Shown: positions 10,491 to 36,174 of the stretch, piece after piece
Numbering within the stretch: position 1 is the first letter of the stretch
Layout: each line of letters begins with the position of its first letter
Translations under genes and position numbers: made by a program
DNA from: Alistipes sp.
Lineage (GTDB): Bacteria > Bacteroidota > Bacteroidia > Bacteroidales > Rikenellaceae
DNA length: 36,613 nucleotides
NCBI GenBank assembly: GCA_017408825.1
Contig: JAFQTX010000004.1
Coordinates: 1 to 36,613, forward strand
Reading direction: 5' to 3'
Notes under the pieces: generated by a model
What the model was told of the DNA's origin: nothing
Database searches by the model: none
Seen by the model: the letters and a program-made list of their open reading frames with translations, nothing else

Positions 10491-10949
10491 ATGAAGAGTT
10501 TGAAGATATGGTCATTGGCAGTGTTGCTGCTTGTGACAATGGTGGGCTGCAAGAACAAATCTGGTGACGAACAAAAGATTGGCGGCTTCGATAAGATTGA
10601 GCAGGAGTGGAAACTCGTGTCGGTAAATGGCGTAGATGCAGAGTTCAACATCTATATCAGCTTCTCATCGGGTATGTTTGCCCTATATCAGCAGGCATTT
10701 ACAGTCGATTACAAGTTCTACGATGGCGAGTATCATGTAAGTGGCGACACGCTGTCGGGTAGCTACTTCGAGGGTGGCGATTGGAAGTGCGACTATACTG
10801 GTGGTATTACTGAGGATGGTAAGACCATGACGCTTAAGAGCAAGGAGGAGCATCCTATAACATGTGTGTACGAGGCTTGCACCATCCCTGAAGAGGTTAA
10901 GGAGGAGGCGACAGGTACACGTGCAGTGGATGTGATCCCATTCTTGTAA
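10491..10949 (+). CDS. Small lipocalin-like lipoprotein, partner of subtilase 1
   Basis: This is a 152-residue predicted lipoprotein (lipobox MVGC). I start it at the ATG at 10491 because a longer in-frame version would begin inside the subtilase gene and bury the signal peptide. The mature part has an all-beta pattern like small lipocalin-like proteins of Bacteroidetes: WKLVSVNG, then FNIYISFSSGMFALYQQ and DGEYHVSGDTLSGSY. It is clearly paralogous to the 147-residue protein at 13222; both end in V-I/V-PFL. No enzyme motif is seen. Its fixed pairing with a subtilase suggests an inhibitor, chaperone or product-binding role (inference). Confidence 0.85.
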   Translation: MKSLKIWSLAVLLLVTMVGCKNKSGDEQKIGGFDKIEQEWKLVSVNGVDAEFNIYISFSSGMFALYQQAFTVDYKFYDGEYHVSGDTLSGSYFEGGDWKCDYTGGITEDGKTMTLKSKEEHPITCVYEACTIPEEVKEEATGTRAVDVIPFL

Positions 10950-11078
10950 TTTTCGATTGTAAGGCAGATATCTACTGCCGCTCGACAAAAAATCCCGACA
11001 ATGAGCAGTACGCCAAGTACAGCACATCGTCGGGATTTTTGTCGAGCGTTGTATCGGCAACCATCCCAATCTCCTATT
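10948..11078. repeat. Long palindromic element A (terminator-like)
   Basis: The element begins AATTTTCGATTGTAAGGC, with its first bases inside the TAA stop codon of the preceding gene. Its central hairpin pairs 10981-10999 with 11029-11046 (one bulged A) over an inner ATGAGC/GCACAT arm and a GTAC-N-GTAC apex. The stem ends in a T run (ATTTTTG), so it should terminate cassette 1 transcripts. The right end has decayed compared with copies B, C and E. Confidence 0.85.
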
Positions 11079-11108
11079 GCTGTTCATTGCAATTTATCCG
11101 CTAAAAAC

Positions 11109-11137
11109 TTTCAATTACGGATTTTTTTGTATATTTG
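11109..11137 (+). promoter_or_regulatory. Promoter of subtilase cassette 2
   Basis: The -7 box TATATTTG is at 11130-11137, with a TTTC at 11109-11112 in a -33-like position (17-bp spacing, so weak). The box and the following CATCTTGAGA match the cassette 1 promoter exactly. Confidence 0.6.
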
Positions 11138-11200
11138 CATCTTGAGAGATTGTGAATTAAGCGGAGCTTACGAAACAAATAACTTTTAACTATAACATCT

Positions 11201-13192
11201 ATGAACAGAACAAAACTACTACTTCTTGCCCTTGTGGCCTTGTTCGTAGCATCGTGTGCTACTGACACTGTAGACCAGGGGGTTACCGCTGAGAGCATAG
11301 CAGCTAAGAAGTTTGTAAACACATCAGCTGATGCTGTTGCTGGCGAGCTGATTATCTATGTAGACGAGGCTACTGCCGAGCAGCTTCTCGCCTCGGAGTG
11401 CGCTACACGCTCAGGCGTTACCTCTCTCGACGGCTTTGCTGTTGAGGTGGGCGCTACGGAGCTTAAGCCTGTGTTCAACCTTAAGGTTAATGCTGAGCAG
11501 AAGCGCGAACTCGATATGCACCGCTGGTTTACAGTATGCTTCTCGGAGGATACTAACCTCGATGTGGCAGCTAAGCGCCTTGCTGAGTGCGAGGTTGTAG
11601 AGCGTGTTCAGTTTGCTACACGTGTCTCTCAGCCTAAAGTGACGGCAGAAGTGATTGATCCTGCTGAGTTGGCAACAACACGTGCTGTGAATGTGCCTTT
11701 CGATGATACGCTACTACCACGACAGTGGCACTACTACAACGATGGTAGTGTAGACTTCCCAAATGCTAAGGCTGGTGCCGACATCAACCTCTTTGCAGCG
11801 TGGGAGCATACCACTGGTCGCCCCGATGTTGTTGTAGCTGTCGTTGATGAGGGTGTTTGCTACACTCACAAGGACCTTCAGCCTAATATGCTCGTTAATG
11901 AGGCTGAGCAGAATGGTGCTGATGGCGTTGATGATGATGATAACGGCTATGTTGATGATATTTATGGCTACAATTTCGTAGATAAAGGTCGTGTGACATG
12001 GACTCGTCCTGGCGACTCTGGCCACGCTACTCACGTGGCAGGTACTGTGGCCGCTGTGACAAACAATGGCTTTGGCGTTGCAGGTATTGCTGGTGGCTCG
12101 GGCAATGGCGATGGCGTACGCATCTTATCATGTCAGATTATCTCTGATCGTAATGCTGCGGGCGTAAGTGCTACGGCAGCGGCGGTAGAGTATGCTGCTG
12201 ATCGTGGTGCTTGCGTATTGCAGAACTCTTGGGGCTTTGAAGCTGGTCAGCTCGCTAACGATAGTGCGTTTGAGACTGGTACGACAGGCGTTGAGTGGAA
12301 GGCATTCCAATACTTTATGGAAAAGAAGAATCATCCTAACCTTGAGGGTGGTATCATCATCTTTGCTGCAGGCAACGACGGTAAGTCTGTAGCTGGCTAT
12401 CCAGCAGCCTATAACAAGCTTATCGCCGTGTCGGCAATCGCACCAGATGGCTGTCCTACATACTACACATGCTACGATCGTGGCTGTAACGTGTCGGCAC
12501 CTGGTGGTGAGTATTTCATTCGTAACGGCGCTCGCTTTGAGAGTGGTTGCGTGGCATCTACATTCCCCGGCGACCAGTATGCTTTCATGCAGGGTACATC
12601 AATGGCGTGTCCTCACGTATCGGGTATAGCTGCTTTGGCTATCTCGTATGCTGCTGATAATGGCATCGTGCTTACACTCCCTGAGCTTAAGGATATCATC
12701 GTATCATCTGTCTCAGGTCTTGAGTTCAGTGGTACAAAGTCGCACTACGAGACTCAGGGCACGATGAACCTTACCAACTACAAGAATAAGATGGGTACAG
12801 GCCTTATCGATGCTTATCGTGTGTTGATGGCTGTGCGTGGTACCACATGTATTCCTTTGCCTCTTGGCGAGCAGGTAATTCTCGATATCAACTATTACAT
12901 TGGTGATGGTAACCTCCAGGTTAAGATGCTTGAGTCAGAAATCTCTGACGAGGTTAAGGAGAAGCTCGGTATTACAGACTGCCGCTTTATGGGTAGCAAG
13001 CTTCTTATCACTTGTACCAAGCCTGGTAGCGCACTTGTAAAGTTGAAGTATATTGCTGGTGGTACTGCCGTAGGTGGCGGAATGATTACAGGCGGTATGG
13101 AGGCTGAGCAGGAGTTCGCATTCGTGGTGCGTCCAGGTATTAAGGTTGATGACAGCACAGGTGCTCCAATCGTTCCTGGCGGCTGGTTGTAA
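11201..13192 (+). CDS. Subtilisin-like (S8) serine protease lipoprotein, copy 2
   Basis: This 663-residue paralogue of the upstream subtilase has lipobox FVASC (C19), the same prodomain arrangement (about 45-150) and a catalytic domain with D216 (VVAVVDEG), H275, N392 (FAAGND) and S467 (GTSMACPHVSG). The histidine motif reads HATH instead of the usual HGTH, a mild change next to an intact catalytic residue. The Asp-rich loop DDDDNGYVDD is kept. The C-terminal domain again has a Gly-rich loop (AGGTAVGGG) and ends in GGWL. It probably arose by duplication with its small partner gene, which follows after 29 bp. Confidence 0.95.
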   Translation: MNRTKLLLLALVALFVASCATDTVDQGVTAESIAAKKFVNTSADAVAGELIIYVDEATAEQLLASECATRSGVTSLDGFAVEVGATELKPVFNLKVNAEQKRELDMHRWFTVCFSEDTNLDVAAKRLAECEVVERVQFATRVSQPKVTAEVIDPAELATTRAVNVPFDDTLLPRQWHYYNDGSVDFPNAKAGADINLFAAWEHTTGRPDVVVAVVDEGVCYTHKDLQPNMLVNEAEQNGADGVDDDDNGYVDDIYGYNFVDKGRVTWTRPGDSGHATHVAGTVAAVTNNGFGVAGIAGGSGNGDGVRILSCQIISDRNAAGVSATAAAVEYAADRGACVLQNSWGFEAGQLANDSAFETGTTGVEWKAFQYFMEKKNHPNLEGGIIIFAAGNDGKSVAGYPAAYNKLIAVSAIAPDGCPTYYTCYDRGCNVSAPGGEYFIRNGARFESGCVASTFPGDQYAFMQGTSMACPHVSGIAALAISYAADNGIVLTLPELKDIIVSSVSGLEFSGTKSHYETQGTMNLTNYKNKMGTGLIDAYRVLMAVRGTTCIPLPLGEQVILDINYYIGDGNLQVKMLESEISDEVKEKLGITDCRFMGSKLLITCTKPGSALVKLKYIAGGTAVGGGMITGGMEAEQEFAFVVRPGIKVDDSTGAPIVPGGWL

Positions 13193-13221
13193 TATATTAA
13201 TGCTTAAAAGTATAACGAGAT

Positions 13222-13665
13222 ATGAAGAAGTTATTTGCAATTTTTGCAATCGTAGCACTCGCCCTGGTTGGTTGCGACAAGGATTCAGATGGCACAGGCG
13301 GCGATGTAAGCGCTGTTAATGGCCAGTGGCACATCACAGAGTGGAATGGCGAGTCTCCAGAGTTTGACGTTTATATCAACTTTGATAGCGGCAAGTTCGA
13401 GATCTACCAGCAGGTGTGGTCGCTCGACTACAAGCTGTTCAAGGGAACTTATAAGGTTAGTGGTGAGATTATTACTGGTACCTATGAGGATGGCTCTTTG
13501 TGGGCTTCGGGTTATAAGTTTGCTGTAAATGATGGAAAGCTCACTATGTATAGCCAGGAGGATCAGTCAATAACATCTGTTTACGAGAAGTGTACTATTC
13601 CTGACGAGGTTATCGCTGAGGCAACTACTGCTACTCGTAGTTCGGAGGTTGTTCCTTTCTTGTAA
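13222..13665 (+). CDS. Small lipocalin-like lipoprotein, partner of subtilase 2
   Basis: This 147-residue lipoprotein (lipobox ALVGC) is the paralogue of the protein at 10491. The shared core is W-H/K-I/L, NG, then EF-D/N-V/I-YI-N/S-F-x-SG-K/M-F and YQQ, followed by DYK and G-T/E-Y-K/H-VSG, ending in EVVPFL. The fold is predicted to be a small beta barrel; no catalytic residues are apparent. The repeated order S8 protease then this family in two neighbouring operons argues for a functional link. Confidence 0.86.
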   Translation: MKKLFAIFAIVALALVGCDKDSDGTGGDVSAVNGQWHITEWNGESPEFDVYINFDSGKFEIYQQVWSLDYKLFKGTYKVSGEIITGTYEDGSLWASGYKFAVNDGKLTMYSQEDQSITSVYEKCTIPDEVIAEATTATRSSEVVPFL

Positions 13666-13685
13666 TCTTTGATTGAACATATTGC

Positions 13686-13721
13686 GGGGTAGTCCTTTGA
13701 AGAGGATTACCCCCATTTTTT
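13686..13721 (+). terminator. Terminator of subtilase cassette 2
   Basis: An 11-bp stem (13686-13696 with 13703-13713, one G-T pair), a 6-nt loop and a run of six T (13716-13721). It ends only 3 bp before the ATG of the C10 protease, so it could also attenuate expression of that gene. Confidence 0.85.
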
Positions 13722-13724
13722 ACT

Positions 13725-15461
13725 ATGAGACGTATACTATTAATGTTGCTACTGCTGCTTACGGTTAGTGGGGTAGTGGCTAAGGAGATTTCATCGACAA
13801 GGGCTCTGGAGGTTGCACGTAGCCTTTTTGGCGACACTACACGTAGCTCGGAGCTGTGTGTGGCGTGGAATAGCAACATACTCAACCCAACACGAGCATA
13901 CTCTGCACCTACGTTCTATGTCGTTACGCCAAGGTCGGGGCAGGGCTTTGCAATCGTTGCTGGTGATGATTGCGTGGCGCCTATCTTAGCCTACTCGACG
14001 CAGGATGCTGTGTCGCAAGATGGTGTGTTGCCACCGAACTTTGAGGCGTGGCTAAGGTATGTCGATAGCGTGATAAGCTATGCACGAGTATATGGTGTCG
14101 TGCCATCGGACGATACTCTTAGGCTGTGGAGTGAGGGGTACACTCCTCTCGGAGCAATGTTGCTCAATACCGCTCGTTGGAGTCAGTATATGCCCTACAA
14201 TAAGTATTGCCCGTTGGATGATGGCGTGTCATCCTTGTCAGGTTGTACGCAGACAGCAATGGCCATTATTATGCACTATAACCGCTGGCCAGAGAGGGCG
14301 CAAGGTGTATCCGAGCCATTTACCACGCTTACTAAGGGTATAAATGTCCCCTCACGTGACCTTAATCACGTTTACGACTGGGATAATATGCTTGAAGAGT
14401 ATGTCGAGGGTGAGTATAGCGATGTTGAGGGTGATGCTGTGGCGGTGCTTATGGCCGACCTTGGCCATTCGTTCCAGGCCGACTACTCGTCAATCGGCAC
14501 TGCGGCACTACCCAATAATGTGGCGCTGTATGAGAACTATGGTTATAGTCCATCGTGCTACTATGCTATGCGTGATTACTACTCGGTGGATAGCTGGAAT
14601 GCTCTGCTACGTAGTGAGATAGATGCCAACCGTCCGGTATTCTATAGCGCATATACTGCCGAGGAGGCGGGGCACGCATTTGTTATCGATGGCTATGATG
14701 ACGGCGACTACTTCCACGTCAATTGGGGCTGGGGAGGTATGAGTAATGGTTTCTTTAAGATTGAGGGGCTTATTCTCGAGGAGTATATCTTCGATACGAG
14801 GCATTGGGCACTGCTTGGCATTCACCCTATGCGTGATGGCGAGGTTGATAATTGGATCTACCTCTCAACTCCAGGTATGACGACTAAGGCTACGGAGTTT
14901 ATGTCGGGACAGGCGTTTGTTATTGAGGGTATCTCAATTGCCAACCCAGCGGTTATCAACTTCGATGGTGAGGTGCGTGTTGGCGTTTGTGATATTACGG
15001 GAGAGTTTAAGTCGTGGGCCTCGGAGGCTATCCCCTTCTCGCTCGACTCGGGCTATGCTACCTCGGTGCTAAATATCGAGACAGAGATTAAGGACGATAT
15101 TGAGTCGGGCGATAGGTTGCGTGCTTTCTATCGTGCAAAGGGGAGAGATAAATGGTTTTGGATGATGCCATATGCCGATAATACTCAGTGGGAGATTGTG
15201 CTCAAACACCCCTCGATAGGAGATACCACATCGCTAAAGTTTGATAAATCAACGGGTATGATGACCATTAAGCATGCTACGGATGTCACCGCATCACTCT
15301 ATCTGCTCGGTAGCGCTGTGGAGAGTGGTGTTATGACCATGTCACGTTCGATGATTATTGATACTAAGAGCCTTAATCACAATGATATGTACACCATATA
15401 CTTGGAGCATAAGGATAGTGGCGAGAGCAGGAGCTATACATTTACTATCAAGGATTTGTAG
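13725..15461 (+). CDS. C10 (streptopain-like) cysteine protease
   Basis: This 578-residue secreted protein belongs to peptidase family C10 (streptopain SpeB, P. gingivalis PrtT, Bacteroides fragilis Bfp). Residues 1-19 form a signal peptide without a clear lipobox. Residues about 20-110 match the Spi-type propeptide, with APTFYVVTPRSGQGFAIVAGDD. The catalytic cysteine is C174 (SGCTQTAMAIIMHYNRWP) and the catalytic histidine H317 (AGHAFVIDGYDDGDYFHVNWGWGG in outline), with the downstream NWGWGG also conserved. The C-terminal ~230 residues are beta-rich and probably exported-domain Ig-like. No own promoter is visible in the few bases after the preceding terminator, so it may rely on read-through. 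It is followed 2 bp later by a lipoprotein gene. Confidence 0.93.
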   Translation: MRRILLMLLLLLTVSGVVAKEISSTRALEVARSLFGDTTRSSELCVAWNSNILNPTRAYSAPTFYVVTPRSGQGFAIVAGDDCVAPILAYSTQDAVSQDGVLPPNFEAWLRYVDSVISYARVYGVVPSDDTLRLWSEGYTPLGAMLLNTARWSQYMPYNKYCPLDDGVSSLSGCTQTAMAIIMHYNRWPERAQGVSEPFTTLTKGINVPSRDLNHVYDWDNMLEEYVEGEYSDVEGDAVAVLMADLGHSFQADYSSIGTAALPNNVALYENYGYSPSCYYAMRDYYSVDSWNALLRSEIDANRPVFYSAYTAEEAGHAFVIDGYDDGDYFHVNWGWGGMSNGFFKIEGLILEEYIFDTRHWALLGIHPMRDGEVDNWIYLSTPGMTTKATEFMSGQAFVIEGISIANPAVINFDGEVRVGVCDITGEFKSWASEAIPFSLDSGYATSVLNIETEIKDDIESGDRLRAFYRAKGRDKWFWMMPYADNTQWEIVLKHPSIGDTTSLKFDKSTGMMTIKHATDVTASLYLLGSAVESGVMTMSRSMIIDTKSLNHNDMYTIYLEHKDSGESRSYTFTIKDL

Positions 15462-15463
15462 AG

Positions 15464-16051
15464 ATGAGAAAGATACTATATATATTCGTTGTGCTGTCAC
15501 TTCTTGCTGGATGTAAGAGGGATAAGCCTCTGTCAGAGCCAAATATCGACACCATCGAGATGGCTACGGATAAATACCAGCTCGATTATAGGGAGCAGAT
15601 ATTGACACTCGAGTTCAAGACCAATGCCGAGTATTGTTTCGAGATTGGTGCAGACTGGATCATACCTACAGAGGATAGCCGTTCGATGGAGAGCTATGAG
15701 CAGAGTTTTGTGGTTGCCGAGAATAGAACATCTGACCTACGTAGTACATACATTAGGATAGTTGCTGGTGAGGTAGAGTATATGGTGACTGTTGAGCAGA
15801 GTGCTAAGGCTGAGACGTTTAATCTAACACTCAGGCATAGCACCCAGCATCTCAATTCGCCCGAGTGGAGTGGTGAAAATGTCCGTGGCAAGGTGGATTG
15901 GGGTGATGATACTAAGGAGGAGTACACCGAGGGGCTTAGCCACGACTACCCCTCGAGTGGCAGATATAGTGCGATGTTCGAGATGGAAAATGTTGAGGGC
16001 TTCGAGATTAAGCGCTTGGGTGACATAGAGCATCTTGATATAGAATACTAA
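15464..16051 (+). CDS. BACON/PKD-like small lipoprotein
   Basis: A 195-residue lipoprotein (lipobox LLAGC, C17). Residues about 40-115 resemble a BACON domain (YCFEIGADWIIP, then a strand ending VTVEQSAK). The C-terminal part has VDWGDDTKEEY and LSHDYPSSGRYSAMFE, reminiscent of a PKD-type fold. It sits 2 bp after the C10 protease and is very likely co-translated with it. A protease-associated binding module or inhibitor is possible; the function is unknown. Confidence 0.8.
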   Translation: MRKILYIFVVLSLLAGCKRDKPLSEPNIDTIEMATDKYQLDYREQILTLEFKTNAEYCFEIGADWIIPTEDSRSMESYEQSFVVAENRTSDLRSTYIRIVAGEVEYMVTVEQSAKAETFNLTLRHSTQHLNSPEWSGENVRGKVDWGDDTKEEYTEGLSHDYPSSGRYSAMFEMENVEGFEIKRLGDIEHLDIEY

Positions 16052-16072
16052 ACAAAATAGTAGTGGACTATT

Positions 16073-16096
16073 AAGCATTAATCAAAGTGCTTTTTT
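16073..16096 (+). terminator. Terminator after C10 protease operon
   Basis: A 7-bp stem with one G-T pair (16073-16079 with 16086-16092), a 6-nt loop and a T run through 16096, starting about 22 bp after the lipoprotein stop codon. Confidence 0.55.
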
Positions 16097-16105
16097 GTTA
16101 TAATT

Positions 16106-16166
16106 CACACCTTTAGGTGTGCAAGGCATAGCCTTGCCACAAGCCTCCCTTTGAGAAGGGAGGTTT
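16106..16166. repeat. Three consecutive small hairpins
   Basis: Three perfect stem-loops stand in a row: 16106-16112/16115-16121 (7 bp, 2-nt loop), 16022-type arm 16122-16127/16131-16136 (6 bp, 3-nt loop) and 16144-16151/16156-16163 (8 bp, TGAG loop). This is a dispersed-repeat-like intergenic unit; whether it acts as RNA or as DNA is unknown. Confidence 0.7.
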
Positions 16167-16193
16167 GGAGGGATTGTATATATGTAGATGTAT

Positions 16194-16239
16194 ATAAACA
16201 AGATATAGGATACTTGCAGGTATCCTATATCTTGTTTAT
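16194..16239. terminator. 20-bp perfect hairpin between convergent genes
   Basis: Positions 16194-16213 and 16220-16239 form a perfect 20-bp stem with a 6-nt loop. It covers the yraN stop codon and lies between convergent operons, so it probably serves as a bidirectional terminator, although neither side has a long T run. Confidence 0.7.
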
Positions 16240-16592
16240 AATATGTTCTCGACATACTCTATCGAGTAGCTGTCGTCATCATCAACCGTAATGGCTATAA
16301 GGTCGAATTGCAGGTTGAGCCTTATGTGGTGTATGGCTCGGTAGGCCGTAGCTCCACGACGCAACGTGCGGCGTTTCTGCTCGTCGATGCTGTCGTAGGC
16401 CGACTGCCAGCCCCCACGCTTACGAGTCTTAACCTCGACAAAGTGTAGCGTGTCGTAGTGCTCGGCGATGATATCTATCTCGTAGTGTCCTATACGCCAG
16501 TTGCGCTCGACGATATAGTATCCCCGCTCACGTAGCCACTCAGTGGCTATATCCTCGCCACGACTACCCGTTATAGCCTGCTGGCTGCTCAC
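16236..16592 (-). CDS. yraN: YraN/UPF0102 family endonuclease-like protein
   Basis: This 118-residue protein has the YraN (UPF0102) pattern: G-x-x-GE-x-x-A near the N terminus (GSRGEDIA), RGYYIVERNWR, then HYEIDIIA (E38, D40) and FVEVKTR (E53, K55), the PD-(D/E)XK-type nuclease core. The family is linked to DNA processing but its exact substrate is not established. It starts with GTG at 16592, overlapping the pepE stop codon by one base, so translation is probably coupled. Confidence 0.92.
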   Translation of the reverse strand: MSSQQAITGSRGEDIATEWLRERGYYIVERNWRIGHYEIDIIAEHYDTLHFVEVKTRKRGGWQSAYDSIDEQKRRTLRRGATAYRAIHHIRLNLQFDLIAITVDDDDSYSIEYVENIL

Positions 16593-17305
16593 TACTTAGT
16601 GCGGTTGATAAGGAACTCGATGTTGTCGCCTGGCTGCACCTCATAGGTCTCGATACCCTTCTTGAAGATGCGCATAGGGCGTGAGCCGATAAGCTCGATA
16701 GAGTCGCTTGTGACACGTAGCATACACCCCTCACGAAGTCCCACCACGTAGCGACTACGGTTGGCCTCGATATACTCGTTAATGCGCTGCTCACGAGTCT
16801 CGCCAGCGTGACCCTCGGGATTAGCATCGAGATAGTGAGGGTTGATCTGGAATGGTACAAGGCCGATAGCACGGAACGACTCGGGCTGCACGATAGGCAT
16901 ATCGTTAGTGGTGCAGATTGTTGGGCAAGTGACGTTGCTACCTGCCGACCAGCCTACGTATGGCACACCAGCCTTAACACGGCGATATATCATATCGAGG
17001 AGGTCCTCCTCCTGCATCTTCTTGAGTAGTGCAAAGGTGTTGCCGCCACCAATGACTATAGCCTGAGCGTGGCGTACGAAGTTGCGCTTGTTGAGTGCGT
17101 GGTGAACCGAACGCACCTTGATGCCGATCTCGTCGAATCGCTCCTGCACCTTGCGCTCATACTCGTCGTACGAGAATGTAACAGCAGCATAAGGGATGAA
17201 TACTACCTCTGTGACGCCCTCGAGGGTTTTAGCGATCTCGGCGATTGGGTACTTAAGATATGCCTCGCCGGCATTGGTGGAATTGGAAATTAGTAAAAGG
17301 TTCAT
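16592..17305 (-). CDS. pepE: Peptidase E (alpha-aspartyl dipeptidase, S51)
   Basis: This 237-residue cytoplasmic serine peptidase hydrolyses dipeptides with N-terminal aspartate. The nucleophile is S120 in GWSAGSN, with D135 and H157 at positions that match the Salmonella/E. coli PepE triad numbering, and the length fits the family. The N-terminal strand MNLLLISNST and GGGNTFALL are also typical. It forms a two-gene operon with yraN and is divergent from acpP, with 181 bp between the starts. Confidence 0.94.
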   Translation of the reverse strand: MNLLLISNSTNAGEAYLKYPIAEIAKTLEGVTEVVFIPYAAVTFSYDEYERKVQERFDEIGIKVRSVHHALNKRNFVRHAQAIVIGGGNTFALLKKMQEEDLLDMIYRRVKAGVPYVGWSAGSNVTCPTICTTNDMPIVQPESFRAIGLVPFQINPHYLDANPEGHAGETREQRINEYIEANRSRYVVGLREGCMLRVTSDSIELIGSRPMRIFKKGIETYEVQPGDNIEFLINRTK

Positions 17306-17396
17306 AATTCTCTGGTTATTAAGCGTTTAATAGCGTTTTGTTGAAAGTTGTTAATAATTTTTTTGCGAGATAATGTCAAAGATAATAAAAAAGTGT

Positions 17397-17404
17397 TATT
17401 TTTG
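17397..17404 (+). promoter_or_regulatory. Probable -7 element for acpP
   Basis: TATTTTTG matches TAnnTTTG and lies 82 bp before the acpP ATG. No good TTTG is seen 19-21 bp upstream, so the call is tentative. Confidence 0.45.
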
Positions 17405-17486
17405 CACCGTCTAAGGTGAAAATTTTTAGACAAATTACGGTAGAACAATATTTATAACAATAATGTTTAACTAAAACTTATTTATT

Positions 17487-17720: not shown

Positions 17721-17756
17721 TAGACACACTACATATCTTTGCAAGTGAATTGTGCC

Positions 17757-19007: not shown

Positions 19008-19030
19008 TCGTATAAATCTATCACTCTGCA

Positions 19031-25469: not shown

Positions 25470-26018
25470 ATGATATACCCAATCGTAATATACGGCTCGC
25501 AGATTTTGCGTAACGAGTCTGTGGATATCACCCCCGACTACCCAGAGCTTAAGAAACTTATCGATGATATGTGGACTACGCTCGCTGAGGCTGAGGGAGT
25601 GGGTCTTGCAGCACCACAGATAGGCAAGAACATACGCCTATTCATCGTTGATTGCACACCTTGGGGCGAGGATGATCCTACGCTTGCAGATTACCGCAAG
25701 GTATTTATCAATGCCCAGATATATGAGCGCTCGGAGGAGACAGCGCTCTTTGAGGAGGGTTGCCTATCGCTCCCCGGCCTACATGAGAACGTACGTCGCT
25801 CTGTGACTATCCGTATGCGCTACCTCGATGAGAACTTCGTGGAGCACGACGAGGAGTTTACAGGCAAGCCAGCACGTGTAATCCAGCATGAGTATGACCA
25901 TATCGAGGGCAAGGTCTTCACCGACCACCTTGCGCCCCTGCGCCGCAACCTTATTAAGAATAAGTTGCAGAAGATGGCACGTGGGTCGTATCGTGCGGCG
26001 TACAAAACAAAACGATAA
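25470..26018 (+). CDS. def: Peptide deformylase
   Basis: This 182-residue metalloenzyme removes the formyl group from new proteins. All three motifs are intact: GVGLAAPQ (43-50), EGCLSLPG with C98, and QHEYDHIEG with H140, E141 and H144. Length is normal. The TAA stop codon is shared with the start of palindromic element B. Confidence 0.97.
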   Translation: MIYPIVIYGSQILRNESVDITPDYPELKKLIDDMWTTLAEAEGVGLAAPQIGKNIRLFIVDCTPWGEDDPTLADYRKVFINAQIYERSEETALFEEGCLSLPGLHENVRRSVTIRMRYLDENFVEHDEEFTGKPARVIQHEYDHIEGKVFTDHLAPLRRNLIKNKLQKMARGSYRAAYKTKR

Positions 26019-26146
26019 TTTTCGATTATAAGGCCGCATCTGCGGTACATCCCCAAAAGTAAGAGACCTCGGGCTGTACGCTAAAGTACTATCCCGAGGC
26101 CTCTTCTTTTGCGATGCACCACATCTACGACCTTCTAATCAAAAAT
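26017..26146. repeat. Long palindromic element B
   Basis: A 130-bp element starting AATTTTCGATTATAAGGC (its first bases overlap the def stop) and ending in the near complement CCTTCTAATCAAAAAT. The central stem pairs AGAG-x-CCTCGGG with CCCGAGG-x-CTCT around an apex GTACGCTAAAGTAC. It abuts element C with no gap. It probably terminates the def transcript. Confidence 0.85.
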
Positions 26147-26276
26147 AATTTTCGACTATAAGGCAGACATCTACTTCCGCTAACAAAAAATGCCGTCAAT
26201 GGGACGTACGCTTTAGTACTACCCATCGACGGCATTTTTGCCGAGCGTTGTATCTGCAGCCTTCTAATCAAAAATT
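26147..26276. repeat. Long palindromic element C
   Basis: A 130-bp imperfect palindrome, AATTTTCGACTATAAGG to CCTTCTAATCAAAAATT. Its core stem pairs AAAAATGCCGTC with GACGGCATTTTT over ATGGG/CCCAT and an apex GTACGCTTTAGTAC. It has the same length as B and is in direct tandem with it. Confidence 0.9.
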
Positions 26277-26311
26277 GGGGCAGAGTGGGTTTAGGAAGTT
26301 TCAGTGGTGAT

Positions 26312-26435
26312 GGGGATTATGGGGATTATGGGGACGATGGGGACGATGGGGACGATGGGGACGATGGGGATTATTAACCTTAAATTCCCCAGTATCCCCA
26401 GTATCCCCAGTTTCCCCAGTTTCCCCACTATCCCT
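26312..26435. repeat. 9-bp-period G-rich and C-rich arrays facing each other
   Basis: Seven GGGG runs begin at 26312, 26321, 26330, 26339, 26348, 26357 and 26366 (units GGGGATTAT or GGGGACGAT). CCCC runs begin at 26387, 26396, 26405, 26414 and 26423, with a CCC at 26432 (units CCCCAGTAT or CCCCAGTTT). The two arms can partly pair, and the G arm could form a G-quadruplex. A decayed copy lies near 36189-36260. Confidence 0.9.
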
Positions 26436-26460
26436 CGTTAACAACCGTCTTAATTATTTT

Positions 26461-26524
26461 TAGGACCATTAGGACCATTAAGACCATTACGAGGTCGAGT
26501 ATCGGCTGTTGTCTCGGCCGTTGT
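26461..26524. repeat. GACCATTA triple repeat plus conserved tail
   Basis: Three 9-bp units (AGGACCATT, AGGACCATT, AAGACCATT) are followed by ACGAGGTCGAGTATCG and TTGTCTCGG. The same order and tail recur at 36285-36352, so this is the last part of a composite intergenic module. No gene is visible from 26019 to 26620. Confidence 0.8.
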
Positions 26525-28889: not shown

Positions 28890-28897
28890 CAAAGGTA
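28890..28897 (-). promoter_or_regulatory. -7 box before the Fn3-like lipoprotein
   Basis: TACCTTTG on the minus strand, 38 bp before the ATG at 28851. A -33 TTTG is not clear. Its location supports the 28851 start region rather than 29023. Confidence 0.5.
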
Positions 28898-28914
28898 ATA
28901 AAATTTTCTAAATT

Positions 28915-29811: not shown

Positions 29812-29815
29812 AGCA

Positions 29816-29852
29816 CAAAGATACGAATTTTTCGAAAAAAGTGATAACTTTG
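29816..29852. promoter_or_regulatory. Back-to-back promoters for glycosyltransferase and gph
   Basis: In the 45-bp gap, TATCTTTG lies on the minus strand at 29823-29816, 4 nt before the glycosyltransferase ATG (29811). TAACTTTG lies on the plus strand at 29845-29852, 4 nt before the gph ATG (29857). With the usual distance from -7 box to start site, both mRNAs would begin at or next to the ATG. Neither has a good -33 box. Confidence 0.65.
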
Positions 29853-29856
29853 CACT

Positions 29857-30516
29857 ATGAAATACGACCTTGTAATATTTGACCTTGATGGCACGTTGCT
29901 AAATACAATTGGTGACCTGGCTGCCTCCGTAGACTATGTTATGCGCTCACGTAACCTCCCTGAGCATACCGATGCCGAGTATCGACAGATGGTCGGTGGT
30001 GGCATCAAGCGCCTTGTGGAGCGTGCCTTACCCGAGGATTTGGCCCAAGATGAGGCATATGTCGAGGAGTGCGTAGCGCAGTTTAGACGCTACTATGTCG
30101 ATAATATTGATCGCCATACCGAGCCTTACGATGGTATACACTCGCTACTTGCCGAGCTTAGGGCGTGTGGCGTGAAGGTCGCTGTGGCCTCGAATAAGTT
30201 TCAGTACGGCACAGATCGCCTTGTGGCTAAGTTTTTTGGTGACATCGACTTTGTAGCCATCGAGGGTAATCGTGAGGGTGCACCGTTAAAGCCCGATCCA
30301 CAAATCGTGCATAATATCTTGCAGACGGCCAATGTTAATCCCGAGCGTGCCATAATGGTGGGTGACTCTGGGATAGATATTCGTACCGCACGAGCCGCTG
30401 GCATCGAGTCAGTGGGTGTGGCGTGGGGCTTCCGCTTTGCCGAAGAGCTTTACGATGCGGGGGCTACAAAGGTTGTATCTACCTCTTCACAGTTGCGTAA
30501 CCTGCTCTTTGATTAG
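29857..30516 (+). CDS. gph: HAD-family phosphoglycolate phosphatase-like hydrolase
   Basis: This 219-residue HAD phosphatase has motif I FDLDGTLLNT (nucleophile D9, acid D11), a helical cap, motif II VAVASNK, motif III lysine in LKPDP and motif IV MVGDSGIDIRTARAAG. These are typical of Gph/PGP-type enzymes, but the substrate is not certain. It ends 3 bp from the convergent sigma-54-type gene with no visible terminator. Confidence 0.88.
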   Translation: MKYDLVIFDLDGTLLNTIGDLAASVDYVMRSRNLPEHTDAEYRQMVGGGIKRLVERALPEDLAQDEAYVEECVAQFRRYYVDNIDRHTEPYDGIHSLLAELRACGVKVAVASNKFQYGTDRLVAKFFGDIDFVAIEGNREGAPLKPDPQIVHNILQTANVNPERAIMVGDSGIDIRTARAAGIESVGVAWGFRFAEELYDAGATKVVSTSSQLRNLLFD

Positions 30517-30519
30517 TGG

Positions 30520-31656
30520 TTAGATGTGGCAATAGCGATCTACGGTTTCGGCTGTGATCTGCTTGTCGCTAAGTATTATAAGGCGCTCTACGACATTGTG
30601 TAGCTCACGAATGTTCCCTGTCCAACGTCGATGTTCAAGCCTCTCCACAGCATCGTGGTCGATGCTCTTATACTCAATGTTGTAGCGTCCACATATCTCG
30701 CCGATAAAGTGGTTTACGAGTAGTCCTATATCCTCCTGACGCTCACGCAGAGGTGGCACGTCGATCTCAATGACGCTTAGACGGTGGTAGAGGTCCTCAC
30801 GGAAGTTGCCGATCTCTATCTCGTGGCGAATATCCTTGTTGGTGGCCGCTACTACACGTACATCTACGGGAATATCACGATCGCCACCTACGCGCGTAAT
30901 CTTATTCTCTTGCAAGGCACGTAGTACTTTGGCCTGTGCCGAGAGTGCCATATCGCCAATCTCATCCATAAAGAGTGTGCCTCCGTCAGCAAGCTCGAAC
31001 TTCCCCTTGCGCTGCTTTATCGCCGAGGTGAACGACCCCTTTTCGTGGCCGAACAACTCACTCTCGATAAGCTCGGCAGGGATGGCTGCACAGTTTACCT
31101 CAACAAAGGGGGCGGCCGAGCGAGCACTCTTGAGGTGTAGCCAGCGTGCTACAAGCTCCTTGCCTGTGCCATTTTCGCCTAAGACCAGTACACGAGCATC
31201 CGACGGAGCCACACGACTGATCATTCGGCGCACGTGCTCGATAGCCTCAGACGTGCCGATGATAGGTTGCGTTGAGGTGTTTGTGCGTCGGGGGTGTGTG
31301 CGTTGGGTTGTTCGCTGCGCTATGCTTTGAGACGCTTCGAGCGTGAAACTACGCACTCTCTCAAGAAGTAGGTTCATATTTATAGGTAGAGTTAGATAGT
31401 CGATAGCGCCACGTCGCAGGGCCTCTACGGCCGAGTCGATCGAGGGGTTGGCTGCTACCACTATTCGGGGTAGCGACAACTCTTTAAGCTCGATGTCGTC
31501 GCCCGTGATAGCGAGGTCGATATCTTTGGTGCGACATAGCTCCTCGGCTTCACTCTCGTCGAGAAGTTCGTAGGTCATAAAATTCTCAAACCGCAGCCGC
31601 TCACCGAGTGAGTTTAGCATACTTTTCGACTTGAAGATAAGTAAAATTTTTGTCAT
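30520..31656 (-). CDS. Sigma-54-type AAA+ regulator with pseudo-receiver and no HTH
   Basis: A 378-residue NtrC-like protein. Residues 1-105 have a receiver fold, but the phosphoacceptor position is glycine (DLAITG, G52), and the conserved lysine before the cis-proline is leucine (YLTLPI), so it should not be phosphorylated. The AAA+ domain (about 132-360) has Walker A GENGTGKE (160-167), the loop GSFTSA (207-212; consensus GAFTGA), Walker B GTLFMDEIGD and the arginine fingers region FREDLYHRL. It stops at residue 378 after NIRELHNVVERLI, without a Fis-type DNA-binding domain. No histidine kinase is adjacent. It may activate sigma-54 RNA polymerase from solution or have another AAA+ role. Confidence 0.9.
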   Translation of the reverse strand: MTKILLIFKSKSMLNSLGERLRFENFMTYELLDESEAEELCRTKDIDLAITGDDIELKELSLPRIVVAANPSIDSAVEALRRGAIDYLTLPINMNLLLERVRSFTLEASQSIAQRTTQRTHPRRTNTSTQPIIGTSEAIEHVRRMISRVAPSDARVLVLGENGTGKELVARWLHLKSARSAAPFVEVNCAAIPAELIESELFGHEKGSFTSAIKQRKGKFELADGGTLFMDEIGDMALSAQAKVLRALQENKITRVGGDRDIPVDVRVVAATNKDIRHEIEIGNFREDLYHRLSVIEIDVPPLRERQEDIGLLVNHFIGEICGRYNIEYKSIDHDAVERLEHRRWTGNIRELHNVVERLIILSDKQITAETVDRYCHI

Positions 31657-31886
31657 AGTTTGTATTTGTAAATAATTTGCATTTACTTTGTAGTGTAATT
31701 CCGAGGTTAATCGGTTCGATAGTTGTTATCCCCAGATGCAATATCTACAGCGGGGTAAACCAGGGTAAAGGTGCTACTATTTATCCATAGGTGCAAGCCG
31801 CCACGGTGAGTTTGAGCCTAATTGAATTAGTTAATGACTCGAATAGAATGTTTCGTCGAGCATATGTCTATGTAAACAGCAAGATT
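31657..31886. other. Intergenic region between divergent genes
   Basis: A 230-bp gap upstream of both the sigma-54-type gene and the DUF4290 gene. I see no convincing ORF, hairpin or full promoter; TTTACTTTG near 31683 is a partial -7 match. An in-frame GTG at 31791 extends the DUF4290 ORF, but the extension has no family match. Confidence 0.5.
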
Positions 31887-32555
31887 ATGAGAAAGAATTA
31901 TAACTATACGCGTCGCAAGCTCTACCTGCCAGAGTATGGCCGTCATATCCACGAGATGGTAGACTCGTTGCATCAGATCGAGGATCGTGCAGAGCGCACC
32001 CGTCAGGCTAAGGCGGTGATTGCGGTGATGGGTAATCTTAACCCTATGTTGCGTGATACTGAGGAGTTTAAGCATAAGTTGTGGGATCACCTCTACATAA
32101 TGTCCGATTTTCAGCTTGATGTCGATTCGCCATATACGCAACCTTCACGCCAAGATCTGACCATCCGCCCCGAAAAGTTGCCTTATCCCCAGACACGAAT
32201 ACTCTTTAAGCACTACGGCAAGTACACCCAGCAGCTGGTGCGCCATATTGCCGAGAAGTCGAAGAGCTGCGATACCGAGCAGGAGATACTCAACATCGCT
32301 CGTTATATGCGTACTAAGAGCTATGAGTTCAATAACGAGCACCCCAACAACGACTCTATCGTGCGTGACATACGTATAATGTCGGGTGGTGAGGTCGATG
32401 TCGATCTCTCGGAGATCACAAATATGCGTAGCGAGTATCGTCAGCACTCATCGTCGCAGCGTGGTGCTAAGGGCAAGAAACCACAGCACGCCAATCAGCG
32501 AAAGATGCAGAAGGGTGGTGCGAAGAATAGTGCTCGTCATCACCAGCATAGATAA
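31887..32555 (+). CDS. DUF4290 family protein
   Basis: A 222-residue protein typical of Bacteroidetes. The N terminus (YNYTRRKLYLPEYGRHIHEMV, then EDRAERTRQAKAVI and MGNLNPMLRD, FKHKLWDHLYIMSDF) is the DUF4290 signature. The C terminus is a low-complexity basic Lys/His/Gln tail (about 180-222). I start at the ATG at 31887, where homology begins. Function unknown; first gene of an operon leading to thyA and folA. Confidence 0.88.
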   Translation: MRKNYNYTRRKLYLPEYGRHIHEMVDSLHQIEDRAERTRQAKAVIAVMGNLNPMLRDTEEFKHKLWDHLYIMSDFQLDVDSPYTQPSRQDLTIRPEKLPYPQTRILFKHYGKYTQQLVRHIAEKSKSCDTEQEILNIARYMRTKSYEFNNEHPNNDSIVRDIRIMSGGEVDVDLSEITNMRSEYRQHSSSQRGAKGKKPQHANQRKMQKGGAKNSARHHQHR

Positions 32556-32617
32556 CCACTTTTTAGGTAGAAGAGTATATTTTTGTGGCCCTCGGGCCGA
32601 GCATTGAAAGAGAGATA

Positions 32618-33760
32618 ATGAAGAGATTTTTGTTGGCCGCAATGGCCTCTGTTGCGCTCCTTGCCTCGTGCAGTAATAATGGAGCAAATACCACCGTTGA
32701 GGGTCGTTTTGTTAGCGACCGTGTCGATTCAGTATACCTCGAGCGTATATCGGATAGCTATGATGCCGTGGAGCGTATTGATGGTGTAGCGCTGGGTTCG
32801 GACGGAGGATTTAAGTTTGAGTTTGATGTCGATGATGAGACCTCTCCACGCCTTTATCGCCTAAGTTTCAATACTAACGTGCGCCCAATAACACTGGTCG
32901 TTGCTGCGGAAGATAACATCTATCTCGACTCGGCAGGCGATCTGTTCCTAAACTACGAGGTGAAGAACTCCGAGGAGTCGCAGCTCATCAAGCAGTTTAA
33001 CCGAGAGTACTACTCGGCCGTAGATCGTCTTGCACGTCTCAGCCAGCGCATAGCCACGACCGAAGGTGATATGCTCGAGCTTAATAAGGAGGCATATAAG
33101 GCGGCTATGGAGGCTATTCAGTGTCAGGTGCGCTTTGTGGGTAGCAACCCCAATACTTTGGCAGCATTCTACGCGTCACGCCAGCACGTAGCCGAGGAGT
33201 ATGTGCCTATGCTCGAGGGTAAGGGTATCTCCACTCCTCATATTCATATGCTCAAAGAGGGCCTTTCGGAGAGCTATCCCGATAGCCCATATATCGCTCT
33301 GTTGCAGAGTGAGATTGAGAGTGCCGAGGCCTTTGCCAATCTTGCCGATAAGATTGTTGAGAGTCCATACCCCGATATCGAGCTCGACGATATGTATAAG
33401 AATATGCACTCGTTGTCGGAACTCTCTGGCAAGGTTGTGTTGCTCTATTTCTGGACCGCCGAGCTGCCCCTGTGTAACAACATAAATGCCGAGCTTAAGA
33501 CCCTCTATGAGAAGTATCACGACGAGGGCTTTGAGGTATATCACGTATCGGCAGATGCAAACCGTGCACTATGGATCGAGGCTACACGTGCTCAGCAGCT
33601 ACCATGGATCTCGGTATTCGGCTCAACCGACCCACGAGTATTCTCGCTATATAGCGTCGTAGAGTTGCCTATGGCCTACATTATATCTAAGTCGGGCGAT
33701 ATTGAACTCTGCCCTCTGGCTATTGATGGGCTCGAGCGTGAAATCAAGAAGCGACTATAA
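32618..33760 (+). CDS. Thioredoxin-like lipoprotein with degenerate active site (DUF4369-type)
   Basis: A 380-residue lipoprotein (lipobox LLASC, C18; ATG at 32618 chosen because it opens the signal peptide). The N-terminal part resembles the DUF4369 domain found ahead of Bacteroidetes periplasmic thioredoxins. The thioredoxin fold starts near LSGKVVLLYFW; the usual WCxxC is replaced by ELPLC (282-286), so only the second cysteine (C286) remains. The cis-proline (VELPMAYII) is kept. It is therefore unlikely to be an ordinary disulfide reductase. Followed 3 bp later by the lpxH-like gene. Confidence 0.85.
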   Translation: MKRFLLAAMASVALLASCSNNGANTTVEGRFVSDRVDSVYLERISDSYDAVERIDGVALGSDGGFKFEFDVDDETSPRLYRLSFNTNVRPITLVVAAEDNIYLDSAGDLFLNYEVKNSEESQLIKQFNREYYSAVDRLARLSQRIATTEGDMLELNKEAYKAAMEAIQCQVRFVGSNPNTLAAFYASRQHVAEEYVPMLEGKGISTPHIHMLKEGLSESYPDSPYIALLQSEIESAEAFANLADKIVESPYPDIELDDMYKNMHSLSELSGKVVLLYFWTAELPLCNNINAELKTLYEKYHDEGFEVYHVSADANRALWIEATRAQQLPWISVFGSTDPRVFSLYSVVELPMAYIISKSGDIELCPLAIDGLEREIKKRL

Positions 33761-33763
33761 CCA

Positions 33764-34507
33764 ATGATCTACTTTGCCTCAGACATACACCTTGGTGGAG
33801 GTACTTCGGAGCAGGCTAAGCGCACCGAGAGGGCCTTCTGTCGTTGGCTGGATAGCATCGTAGTAGATGCTACGGATATATATCTGCTTGGTGATGTTTT
33901 CGACTTCTGGTTTGAGTATCGTATGGTAGTGCCTCAGGGCTTTGTGCGTGTGCTGGCACGTCTTGCTACGCTTACGGACCGTGGCGTGCGAGTGACTCTA
34001 TTTACCGGCAACCACGATATGTGGTGCTACGACTATCTAAGTCGTGAGTGTGGCATTCATATCGTGCGACGTCCCGAGGTTGTTGAGTTGTATGGTCGTA
34101 AGCTGCATCTTGCTCACGGAGATAATATGAATATCAAGGGGCAGCCACTGCTGCGACTGATGAATGCCACGTTCCGCTCCAAGGTGGCACGTTGGCTCTT
34201 TAGTTGGTTGGTGCATCCCGACCTGGCGCTTAAGTTTGGCCGTGGGTGGAGTGGCCGCTCTCGCAAGTCGCACGGCGGCGAGAAGATCACCCCCAGCCAT
34301 CTGGAATACTTGGTGGAGTATGCTCGTAAGCACTATGCCGAGGCGAGCGATACGTATGCCTATATCTTTGGCCATATGCACTATCCACATAGCGTTGCCG
34401 AGGGTGACTTTAGGGTGTTGTTCCTAAGTGATTGGTCTGGTGACGAGGCCACATATGCGGTGATGGACACCGACCATAAACTCGAACTTAAAACCTTTAA
34501 TATATAG
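33764..34507 (+). CDS. lpxH: UDP-2,3-diacylglucosamine diphosphatase-like metallophosphoesterase
   Basis: A 247-residue calcineurin-like phosphoesterase. Metal ligands are D7 and H9 (SDIHLG), D44 (LLGDVFDFWFE), N83 and H84 (TGNHDMW), H118 (LAHGD) and the late GHMHYP. This matches LpxH, which hydrolyses UDP-2,3-diacylglucosamine to lipid X in lipid A synthesis; the LpxH/LpxG relation in this phylum makes the name probable rather than certain. Stop TAG directly abuts the thyA ATG. Confidence 0.88.
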   Translation: MIYFASDIHLGGGTSEQAKRTERAFCRWLDSIVVDATDIYLLGDVFDFWFEYRMVVPQGFVRVLARLATLTDRGVRVTLFTGNHDMWCYDYLSRECGIHIVRRPEVVELYGRKLHLAHGDNMNIKGQPLLRLMNATFRSKVARWLFSWLVHPDLALKFGRGWSGRSRKSHGGEKITPSHLEYLVEYARKHYAEASDTYAYIFGHMHYPHSVAEGDFRVLFLSDWSGDEATYAVMDTDHKLELKTFNI

Positions 34508-35401
34508 ATGAAACAGTATCTCGAGCTACTATCAACCATACGTGAGCATGGCGTGGTGCGTGGTGACCGTACAGGCACAGGCACAAAGGGAGTATTTGGC
34601 TATCAGATGCGCTTTAACCTCGCTGAGGGCTTCCCGTTGCTTACCACCAAACGTGTATTTATGAAGGGTATCATCCACGAGCTGTTATGGTTTCTTCGTG
34701 GCGACACCAATATAAAGTACTTGGTGGATAATGGCGTGCATATCTGGGATAGTGATGCTTTTCGTTACTACAACGAGCTCTGTGTCAAGCACGGCGTGTT
34801 GCCCGTAGACCTCAATACTTTCCTCGCTGCGGCAGGTGTAGAGTCACCCATTGAGGGCTACCGCTTTGGCGACCTTAACCATGTCTATGGCTATCAGTGG
34901 CGCTCGTGGCCCAAGGCTTCGGGCGAGAGTATCGACCAGATACAAAATGTAATAAACACGCTCAAGACAAACCCTACGTCACGCCGTATGATTGTCTCGG
35001 CGTGGAACGTGGCCGATGTTGAGGATATGGCCCTGCCCCCTTGTCACACGATGTTTCAGTTCTTTGTTGCCGAGGGTAAGCTGTCGTGCCAGCTCTATCA
35101 GCGTAGTGCTGACTGCTTCCTTGGCGTGCCATTCAATATTGCGTCGTACGCTCTGCTTACGATGATGATAGCCAAGGAGTGTGGCCTCGAGCTTGGCGAC
35201 TTTGTACACACGCTCGGCGATGCACATCTCTACCTTAACCATCTCGAGCAGGCTGACGAGCAACTTAGCCGTGAGCCACGCAGGCTCCCCAAGATGAGGC
35301 TCAATCCCGATGTAAAGTCAATATTCGACTACCGCTACGAGGACTTTACACTTGAGGGCTACGACCCGCACCCAGCAATTAAAGCACCACTATCATTCTA
35401 A
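34508..35401 (+). CDS. thyA: Thymidylate synthase
   Basis: This 297-residue enzyme converts dUMP to dTMP with methylene-tetrahydrofolate. The nucleophile is C179 in [17 protein letters not shown] near the start and [20 protein letters not shown] are conserved. Its start touches the lpxH stop, and folA follows after 7 bp, as expected because thymidylate synthase produces dihydrofolate that DHFR recycles. Confidence 0.98.
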
Positions 35402-35408
35402 TATAACC

Positions 35409-35891
35409 ATGCTAAGTATTATCGTCGCCGTAGCTAAGAACGGCACTATCGGAGATAAGAATGCCCTGCTCTGGCATATTAAGGAGGATATGCGTTTCTT
35501 CCGCACTACAACCTCGGGCCACGCCGTGATTATGGGTCGCAAGACCTTTGAGTCGTTGGGCTCTAAGCCACTTCCTAAGCGCACAAACATCGTTATCACA
35601 CGCTCTGATGCATCGTTCGAAGGTGCTCTCACGGCCCACTCACTGGAGGAGGCTGTGCGTCTTGCGGGCGACGACGAGGAGATATTTGTTATTGGCGGTG
35701 CGCAGATATATGCCGAGGCACTCAAGGTTGCTGATAGGCTATACCTCACACGTGTTGAGCGAGACTATGAGGGCGACACCTCGTTCCCCGAGTTTGACCT
35801 CGGCAGGTGGCAGCTTGTTCATGAGGAGCATCACGAGCGTGGGGAGGAGTTTGAGTATCCGTTTACCTTCCTCACCTATGATTTCTTGTGA
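35409..35891 (+). CDS. folA: Dihydrofolate reductase
   Basis: A 160-residue DHFR reducing dihydrofolate to tetrahydrofolate. The ATG at 35409 gives the standard start LSIIVAVAKNGTIG. D27 (HIKEDMRFF) is the catalytic acid, and VIMGRKTFESLG and IFVIGGAQIYAEAL bind NADPH. An in-frame start at 35352 lies inside thyA and adds no homology. Confidence 0.97.
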   Translation: MLSIIVAVAKNGTIGDKNALLWHIKEDMRFFRTTTSGHAVIMGRKTFESLGSKPLPKRTNIVITRSDASFEGALTAHSLEEAVRLAGDDEEIFVIGGAQIYAEALKVADRLYLTRVERDYEGDTSFPEFDLGRWQLVHEEHHERGEEFEYPFTFLTYDFL

Positions 35892-35892
35892 T

Positions 35893-35993
35893 AAGGGGTC
35901 ATCTGCAGCCTCTCAATCTAAAGCCCGAATGGGAAATACACTAAGTATGTCCCATCCGGGCTTTCTCTTAATCGAGGCCACATATAACCCCTT
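35893..35993. repeat. Long palindromic element D (shorter variant, folA terminator)
   Basis: The core stem pairs AAAGCCCG (35920-35927) with CGGGCTTT (35957-35964) over ATGGGA/TCCCAT and an apex ATAC-N-GTAT. Outer arms AAGGGG (35893-35898) and CCCCTT (35988-35993) close it. Part of its left arm recurs at 36014-36043. It begins 1 bp after the folA stop. Confidence 0.85.
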
Positions 35994-36045
35994 CTGACAA
36001 GAAATTTGGTTGTGATAAGGGGTCATCTGCGGCCTCTCAATCATG

Positions 36046-36174
36046 AATTTTCGATTATAAAGCCGCATCTACTTCCGCTAACAAAAGAAAATGCGAATGA
36101 GCAGTACGCCCAAGTACAGCCCATCCGCATTTTTTTTGCCGAGCGTTGTATCTACAGCTTTCTACTCAAAAATT
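36046..36174. repeat. Long palindromic element E
   Basis: A 129-bp copy, AATTTTCGATTATAAAGC to GCTTTCTACTCAAAAATT. The core stem pairs AAAATGCG (36088-36095) with CGCATTTT (36126-36133) around an apex GTACGCCCAAGTAC. The end arms changed on both sides compared with C (AAAGC/GCTTT against AAGGC/GCCTT). Confidence 0.88.

Follow-up and report, generated by a model that had tools for sequence, protein, structure and literature searches.

Hairpins flush with stop codons in Alistipes resemble an undescribed kind of small mobile DNA

The 36,613-nucleotide contig JAFQTX010000004.1 of a draft Alistipes sp. genome (GCA_017408825.1, here G000; 1.89 Mb, 83% complete), analysed as a whole (contig C26) and referred to below as the window, contains five long palindromes, A to E, which a preliminary description had grouped as one family of hairpins with covarying stems. 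We give about an even chance to the reading that they belong to a superfamily of hairpin elements about 130 bases long, restricted to the genus, non-coding and non-autonomous, which are copied into or over sites flush with stop codons. Because the elements are dispersed, nested in another repeat and subject to turnover at orthologous sites, we infer that they move; they are filed here as a new variety of dispersed palindromic repeat, mobile or at least actively exchanged, and they have the appearance of small mobile DNA of a kind not yet described.

Hairpin architecture, family size and range

Folding bears out the existence of all five hairpins, with z-scores of -3.5 to -9.3 (DNA) and -5.7 to -9.7 (RNA) against dinucleotide shuffles, 0 of 200 of which equalled any element (D was folded with its full arms, 35881-36005). 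The core stems differ among A to E, each being paired with its own complement, and the paired changes reported earlier are present, namely ATAC/GTAT at the apex of D and AAAGC/GCTTT in the arm of E. The single plan proposed for the five applies to three of them, as A (10947..11079; core AAAAATCCCGAC; 94.7 bits with the covariance model described below), C (26146..26277; core AAAAATGCCGTC; 149.9 bits, the best row of the genus search) and E (36045..36175, 3' of D; core AAAATGCG; 129.6 bits) are of type I, B (26016..26147) is of type III with a CCTCGGG stem, and D (35879..36007; 66.9 bits) is of type II with the arms TTTCTTGTGATAAGGGG / CCCCTTCTGACAAGAAA, all five lying on the plus strand. B and C stand head-to-tail, and B, absent from the default listing of the covariance model (R1), is known from the arm-motif finder. 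The common end arms AATTTTCGATTATAAGG / CCTTCTAATCAAAAATT hold, with small changes, for B, C and E; A has lost the right outer arm, its right end (..CCATCCCAATCTCCTATT) being unpaired with the kept left arm, and D has arms of its own (ATTTCTTGTGATAAGGGG / CCCCTTCTGACAAGAAAT), which extend it to 35879-36007 and make its earlier bounds of 35893-35993 too short.

Type I copies follow the order of outer arms, a left linker (near GCATCTACTTCCGCTAAC), a variable core stem, an inner ATGGG/CCCAT arm and an apex GTAC-GCnnAA-GTAC, after which the mirror parts follow with a different right linker (near GCCGAGCGTTGTATCT); the elements mostly end in ATTT..AAAT. From 85 sequences returned by the arm finder, 77 folded below -30 kcal/mol and 64 were kept after removal of 10 in which just 12 arm positions matched and, by hand, of 3 chance matches in genes. 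By internal type these comprise 34 copies of type I, 11 of type II, 6 of type III, 11 of type IV and 2 unplaced. The 32 type I copies (of 34) shorter than 140 bases were aligned together with A (alignment A2, n = 33), and the covariance model was built from this alignment. In A2, 96.4% of 1547 pair cells hold standard pairs, two-sided changes occur at 24 of 47 pairs, and three G.U columns are nearly fixed, with an identity of 93-97% in the two linkers, 74-75% in the outer arms and 73% in the cores. The covariation score of 0.375 lies above that of shuffled alignments (0.125; 0 of 500 as high) and that of slid partners (0.04-0.09), in agreement with the covariation claimed earlier; relatedness alone can beat shuffles without structure, an explanation made less likely by the slid controls, which retain relatedness, and the structure was derived from the same alignment.

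Dispersal, also surmised earlier, was confirmed within the genome and across the genus. A genome-wide blastn with C alone as query returned 45 match rows, of which at least 2 are the opposite strand of a listed copy; several rows fall at contig ends, so that copies probably break the assembly. Covariance model and arm finder together placed at least 28 sites in 389,557 bases of G000 (window, C40 and C29), which by extrapolation would amount to more than 100 copies per genome. The list consists of 26 distinct model places, minus the weakest (L099:8704, E 0.088), plus B, L100:14352 and L101:10166, added by hand from the arm finder, and is a rough lower bound, as a second-copy element at about C40:235055 is in neither list; L105:15006 is a shrunken copy. 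In 390 kb of G000 the arm-motif finder detected 20 elements, versus 1 match in one codon-block shuffle, and a long-hairpin scan by unbiased folding proved too permissive for a census and was dropped. Densities in two related species, G028 and G029, are biased, since the stretches were chosen around known elements in the former and partly so in the latter.

With at most 28 candidates scored per genome, the model matches 70 of 121 genomes of the genus, G000 included, some with a single weak match, and in the rest of the order 1 of 197 sampled genomes, weakly. Three weak matches (38-40 bits) were seen near contig ends in G262, a member of another family of the same order (L217, L219, L221). A search of a contig database with the apex pattern gave three loci, true elements being present in two 'Alistipes sp.' metagenome-assembled genomes from cattle and buffalo gut; the third, from Clostridia, lies in a stretch that reads as coding and was taken as chance. 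The two Alistipes assemblies are the only carriers with a name that were found, which makes an Alistipes-like genus of the herbivore gut the probable home of the window. Two viral contigs contain the apex pattern, and by reading neither contains an element. Rfam 15 gave no match over the gathering score in the window, and up to E 10 five matches at B and C, far below that score, the best of which (E 0.08) is to a microRNA model. At the level of titles and abstract starts we found no description of such elements in the literature, subscription journals being mostly outside the coverage.

Placement on stop codons and turnover at orthologous sites

A and B had been described as starting within the stop codon of the preceding gene, which is correct for both: A overlaps the TAA at 10947-10949 of the upstream open reading frame (ORF), and B begins on the TAA at 26016-26018 of def (peptide deformylase, 25470..26018, plus strand), whose end falls in the element. 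D too ends its gene, as the TGA (35889-35891) that terminates the gene for dihydrofolate reductase (folA, 35352..35891, plus strand) lies in its left arm; exact placement as a family-wide rule had been missed, as had the antisense bias, the core exchange at orthologous sites and the restriction to the genus. Six of the 28 sites in G000 are second copies behind another element, and 15 of the 22 first-in-line elements start exactly on a same-strand stop codon (TAATTT or TGATTT), as judged by simple gene calls of our own. Two of the remaining seven lie within four bases of a stop, three have a stop inside the left arm, and two have no same-strand called stop nearby. This placement has a P of about 2e-12 when compared with TRAT sites (99 of 1274 non-coding-or-stop TRAT sites are stops) and of 8e-15 when compared with TRA sites.

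The genes concerned include def, purH, purB, lpdA, kbl, pth, ridA, dxs and folA. That the element created the fit to stop codons by truncating genes was ruled out where the protein end is native: purH, lpdA, kbl and ridA match their family models to the last position, purB nearly so (435 of 436), and def ends at the same position as in its orthologs. For def and pth the family model ends before the protein, and dxs ends ten positions short of its model. For folA at D and for dxs, with the stop inside the arm, truncation was probably made by the element. Because the left arm itself holds stop codons (TAATTT.., ..TGATAAGG), insertions a few codons early would also be tolerated.

Orthologous stops are occupied in different ways in different species. 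At def, G000, G022, G017 and G025 carry differing hairpins flush on the stop, and the other relatives printed have other hairpins or none (30 loci including our own, from 38 matching genomes). Among 27 relatives with the end motif of purH, a count that excludes the unreadable G118, a long hairpin directly abuts the TAA in 11, a remnant is left in 1 (G076), hairpins of 9-base repeats come after TAG in 4, and the other 11 show neither. By reading, the 11 long hairpins are of type II in five cases, of type I in G021, of a CTCATTTAC..GTAAACTC type in four and of another kind in G022. The copy in G021 lacks TTTG in the left arm and the matching bases in the right arm, so that pairing is preserved. 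The gene that follows purH looks, from its start, like purD. In G128, the closest relative by purH, the printed intergenic regions differ wholesale and no clean empty site was seen.

A direct comparison of 11 orthologous stops in G028 and G029 found an element in both species at five, another hairpin family at one, remnants at two (one of them a weak alignment) and no such element at three. Four of the five filled stops have a different core (one of the G029 copies being partial) and one has the same core, and the sequence before the four swapped cores (up to 300 bases) is 91-95% identical between the two species. One core pattern occurs nine times in the G028 sequence read and not at all in that of G029, and another occurs four and seven times, respectively. 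The copies at G029 L129:6990 and L132:10242 (partial) and at G028 L157:368 were not used as queries; L129 was returned as an ortholog. On these sequences, we read the core differences as likely replacement by the genome's own current core, which may proceed via conversion or re-insertion. Beside one element (G028 C15, G029 C14; L144, L131), the two species align in opposite orientation over about 1.5 kb.

Nesting was observed in a second dispersed repeat, GAGGCTGAATAAAAAG...CTTTTTATTCAACCTC, which is often flush on stop codons itself and has the apex TTTACGCnnAGTAAA or a variant (L098, L100 and L109 in G000, L139 and L141 in G028, L114 in G029, L086 in G031). In G000, copies of the repeat marked by TATTTTGTCGTT/ATGCTCGCCC lack an element at L098, L100 and L109, with varying bases past the junction, and contain one at L022, L026, L027 and L028, the last cut by the contig end; in the filled copies the element enters the second repeat at the same internal point.

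Strand asymmetry and competing explanations

When strands are named relative to the upstream gene, the better fold belongs to the antisense strand in 33 of 34 copies of type I, 11 of 11 of type II and 6 of 6 of type III, as well as in six of seven hand-picked further hairpins, and the antisense strand of A2 holds 135 G.T cells versus 14 A.C cells. Folding of an antisense RNA or of a DNA strand could account for this bias, as could avoidance of a strong hairpin in the messenger. In more distant species, similar-looking other sequences stand right after the def stop (L083, L089, L090, L092; in L090, GTTTTAACAAGGC...GCTCTTGTTAAAACC), and the hairpin in L090 folds at -65.6 on the antisense strand versus -46.6.

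On the favoured reading, the elements spread by copy-in or copy-over: the antisense strand would fold as single-stranded DNA (or RNA), its conserved linkers would be bound by a recombination enzyme acting in trans, and the copy would enter beside a stop codon, where harm is least, or would replace a resident element. If mobile, the element would locate gene ends almost to the base across many species of a single gut genus, without the best-known hairpin movers, and its mover, once found, would explain the choice of stop codons. Several observations weigh against mobility of this kind. The analysis turned up neither a mobilising enzyme nor a cargo-bearing copy, and caught no insertion event within one species. 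No target duplication was seen in the nested case, and in the two clearest stop-codon comparisons, def in L065 and site s11 (the latter from a comparison of junctions at three sites), a 4-base AATT duplication and a short replacement fit equally well. At purH, most of the 11 hairpins have similar outer arms (TTTGTTGTGATAA) around differing insides, which suits in-place conversion as much as new insertion. Five of the 22 first-in-line elements have no nearby called stop (two) or have the stop in the arm (three). As for the strand bias, type IV shows none (antisense better in 4 of 11), the purH hairpin of G022 folds better on the gene strand, and without the three fixed G.U columns the antisense excess in A2 shrinks to 46 versus 14 cells, in only about 8 versus 6 columns.

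The search for a mover, for which the preliminary description had envisaged a transposase with matching ends, found none among the Y1, IS110, reverse transcriptase and integron integrase families screened. The Y1 transposase of REP-associated tyrosine transposases (RAYT) and IS200 (PF01797) is absent from G000 and present in 1 of 121 genus genomes (G100, outside the 70 that match) and in 5 of 14 controls, with the qualification that the drafts are incomplete. The DEDD transposase of IS110 bridge-RNA elements (PF01548) occurs in 5 of 121 genus genomes, none of them element-bearing. For a retroelement (group II intron, diversity-generating retroelement or retron), the reverse transcriptase model PF00078 shows no association with the elements, matching 18 of 70 element-bearing versus 19 of 51 other genomes (Fisher P 0.23); the one reverse transcriptase of G000 may still play a part. 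A cargo-bearing long version of up to 4 kb was absent from seven contig reads of about 1.0 Mb in three genomes (the window, C40 and C29 of G000, C24 and C13 of G029, C32 and C2 of G028). The 12 arm pairs found there comprise seven tandems or truncated copies (144-273 bases), two spans of two known elements and three that were re-examined and rejected, one linking an isolated left arm, across a gene, with a known element and two lying inside coding sequence.

The closest known systems include REP (repetitive extragenic palindromic) sequences and REPINs with their RAYT, which are dispersed extragenic hairpin palindromes, often paired and suspected to be mobile (PMC3116915, PMC3733652), a REP being a palindrome of 20-40 bases with GTAG at one end (PMC3733652). 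The elements described here share the many dispersed, extragenic, hairpin-forming copies, but are about 130 bases long, have no GTAG tag and no Y1 transposase in 120 of 121 genomes, lie flush on stops and exchange cores at orthologous sites. CGTC-tagged palindromic repeats are likewise short palindromes apparently without a dedicated transposase (PMC3733652), but differ in length, ends, conserved internal linkers and stop-codon placement. Miniature inverted-repeat transposable elements are also short, non-coding and dispersed with terminal inverted repeats; here, however, the terminal repeats are not conserved between copies or loci, the nested case shows no target duplication (although an AATT duplication would fit def in L065 and site s11) and no parent transposon was seen.

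An alternative that we consider rather less likely is that the hairpins are selected RNA elements of messenger 3' ends, in which a stem directly at the stop gives 3'-to-5' exonucleases no free tail to start from and so shields the message upstream, a role also proposed for REP; A.C mismatches on the messenger strand would then spare the long duplex from RNase III. The position flush with native stops of housekeeping genes, the hairpin that separates purH from the gene after it in G000 and in 11 of 27 relatives, the compensated structure and the still strong gene-strand fold of the kept copies (about -37 to -70 kcal/mol) all agree with such a role. Selection on a messenger hairpin, however, would lead one to expect the opposite of the better antisense fold of types I-III, 51 of 121 genus genomes have no match and orthologous genes manage without an element, and such a role needs no rapid exchange of cores. 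If the elements are functional in this way, housekeeping genes carry a large class of rapidly evolving structures at their 3' ends; in both cases the family offers many orthologous sites for comparing filled, swapped and element-free states.

It is rather improbable that there is no selection on structure at all and that template switching during replication corrects the palindrome arms against each other, with spread by chance recombination. Whole cores change in matched fashion rather than by single pairs, the two arms at purH in G021 lack corresponding bases, and unrelated hairpin families as well as 9-base repeat hairpins occupy the same places, all as this process would predict. Yet it should yield perfect arms, whereas the asymmetric linkers are 93-97% identical and three G.U pairs nearly fixed, and it leaves the stop-codon placement unexplained. 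Slightly more doubtful still is a bolder version of mobility, in which a new kind of mobile nucleic acid inserts by virtue of the translation stop itself; an RNA intermediate might, for instance, be cut or primed where translation of a message ends, the folded antisense strand would be what is recognised, and copies would exchange modular cores.

The elements had also been proposed to act as terminators, and we regard an origin as intrinsic terminators that became dispersed as very unlikely. They are hairpins at gene ends in gene orientation, and by reading, TTTTT comes after the inner hairpin on both strands in many type I copies (ATTTTTG after the type I inner hairpin). A simple scan, however, calls no terminator at A-E, types II and III have no plain T-run, no T-run follows the complete hairpin, the fold of the transcribed strand is the weaker one in types I-III, and the hairpin behind purH lies inside an operon, before the next gene. 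Terminator-like hairpins with T-runs do occur nearby on the minus strand (26599-26576 and 36446-36415).

Recombination sites of the integron attC kind are the least credible of the explanations considered: the imperfect palindromes with a variable stem in a conserved, asymmetric architecture, flush after stops and with the antisense (bottom) strand folded (types I-III, not IV), recall attC, but the genes stand in ordinary orders rather than in cassette arrays, and by eye no GTTRRRY/RYYYAAC end boxes were seen. The integron integrase model TIGR02249 has no match over its cut-off in 121 genus genomes and none at E 1e-10 in G000, a cut-off left unexercised as the control genomes likewise gave no positive; the weaker matches in 120 of 121 genus genomes and 13 of 14 controls were read as tyrosine recombinases of other kinds.

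Companion repeats and neighbouring features

B and C are followed by a companion region (26277..26500, plus strand, approximate bounds) of 9-base repeats GGGGATTAT/GGGGACGAT, their complement CCCCAGTAT and then GGACCATTA repeats, and a similar region follows E (36176..36340, plus strand, approximate bounds). Such 9-base arrays (GGGGATTAT, GGACCATTA) are often followed by their own complement, giving further hairpins; they occupy 26290-26500 and 36190-36340, with additional sites at 8145-8223 of the window and at position 208173 of C40 in G000; directly after the purH stop (TAG) they were seen in G128, G114, G097 and G083. An extra partial left arm of the D type, TGATAAGGGGTCATCTGCGGCCTCTCAATC, lies between D and E (36013..36042, plus strand) by direct reading.

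Upstream (5') of A, ORFs at 8381-10459 and 10419-10949 overlap on the same strand in different frames, the second without a Pfam match, and are possibly one frame-changed gene. The neighbouring genes at 9256-10428 and 12010-13131 share stretches of 71-82% identity, which makes a tandem duplication likely. At the extreme start of the contig (1-233), two 112-base direct repeats are 97% identical, and at its other end (36480-36613) the apparent start of an insertion-sequence ORF (MRKKHDYVALLKYMRMLEDGYSVKSIAKNYG) is cut by the contig end, the identical sequence being found 3' of the second repeat in L022.

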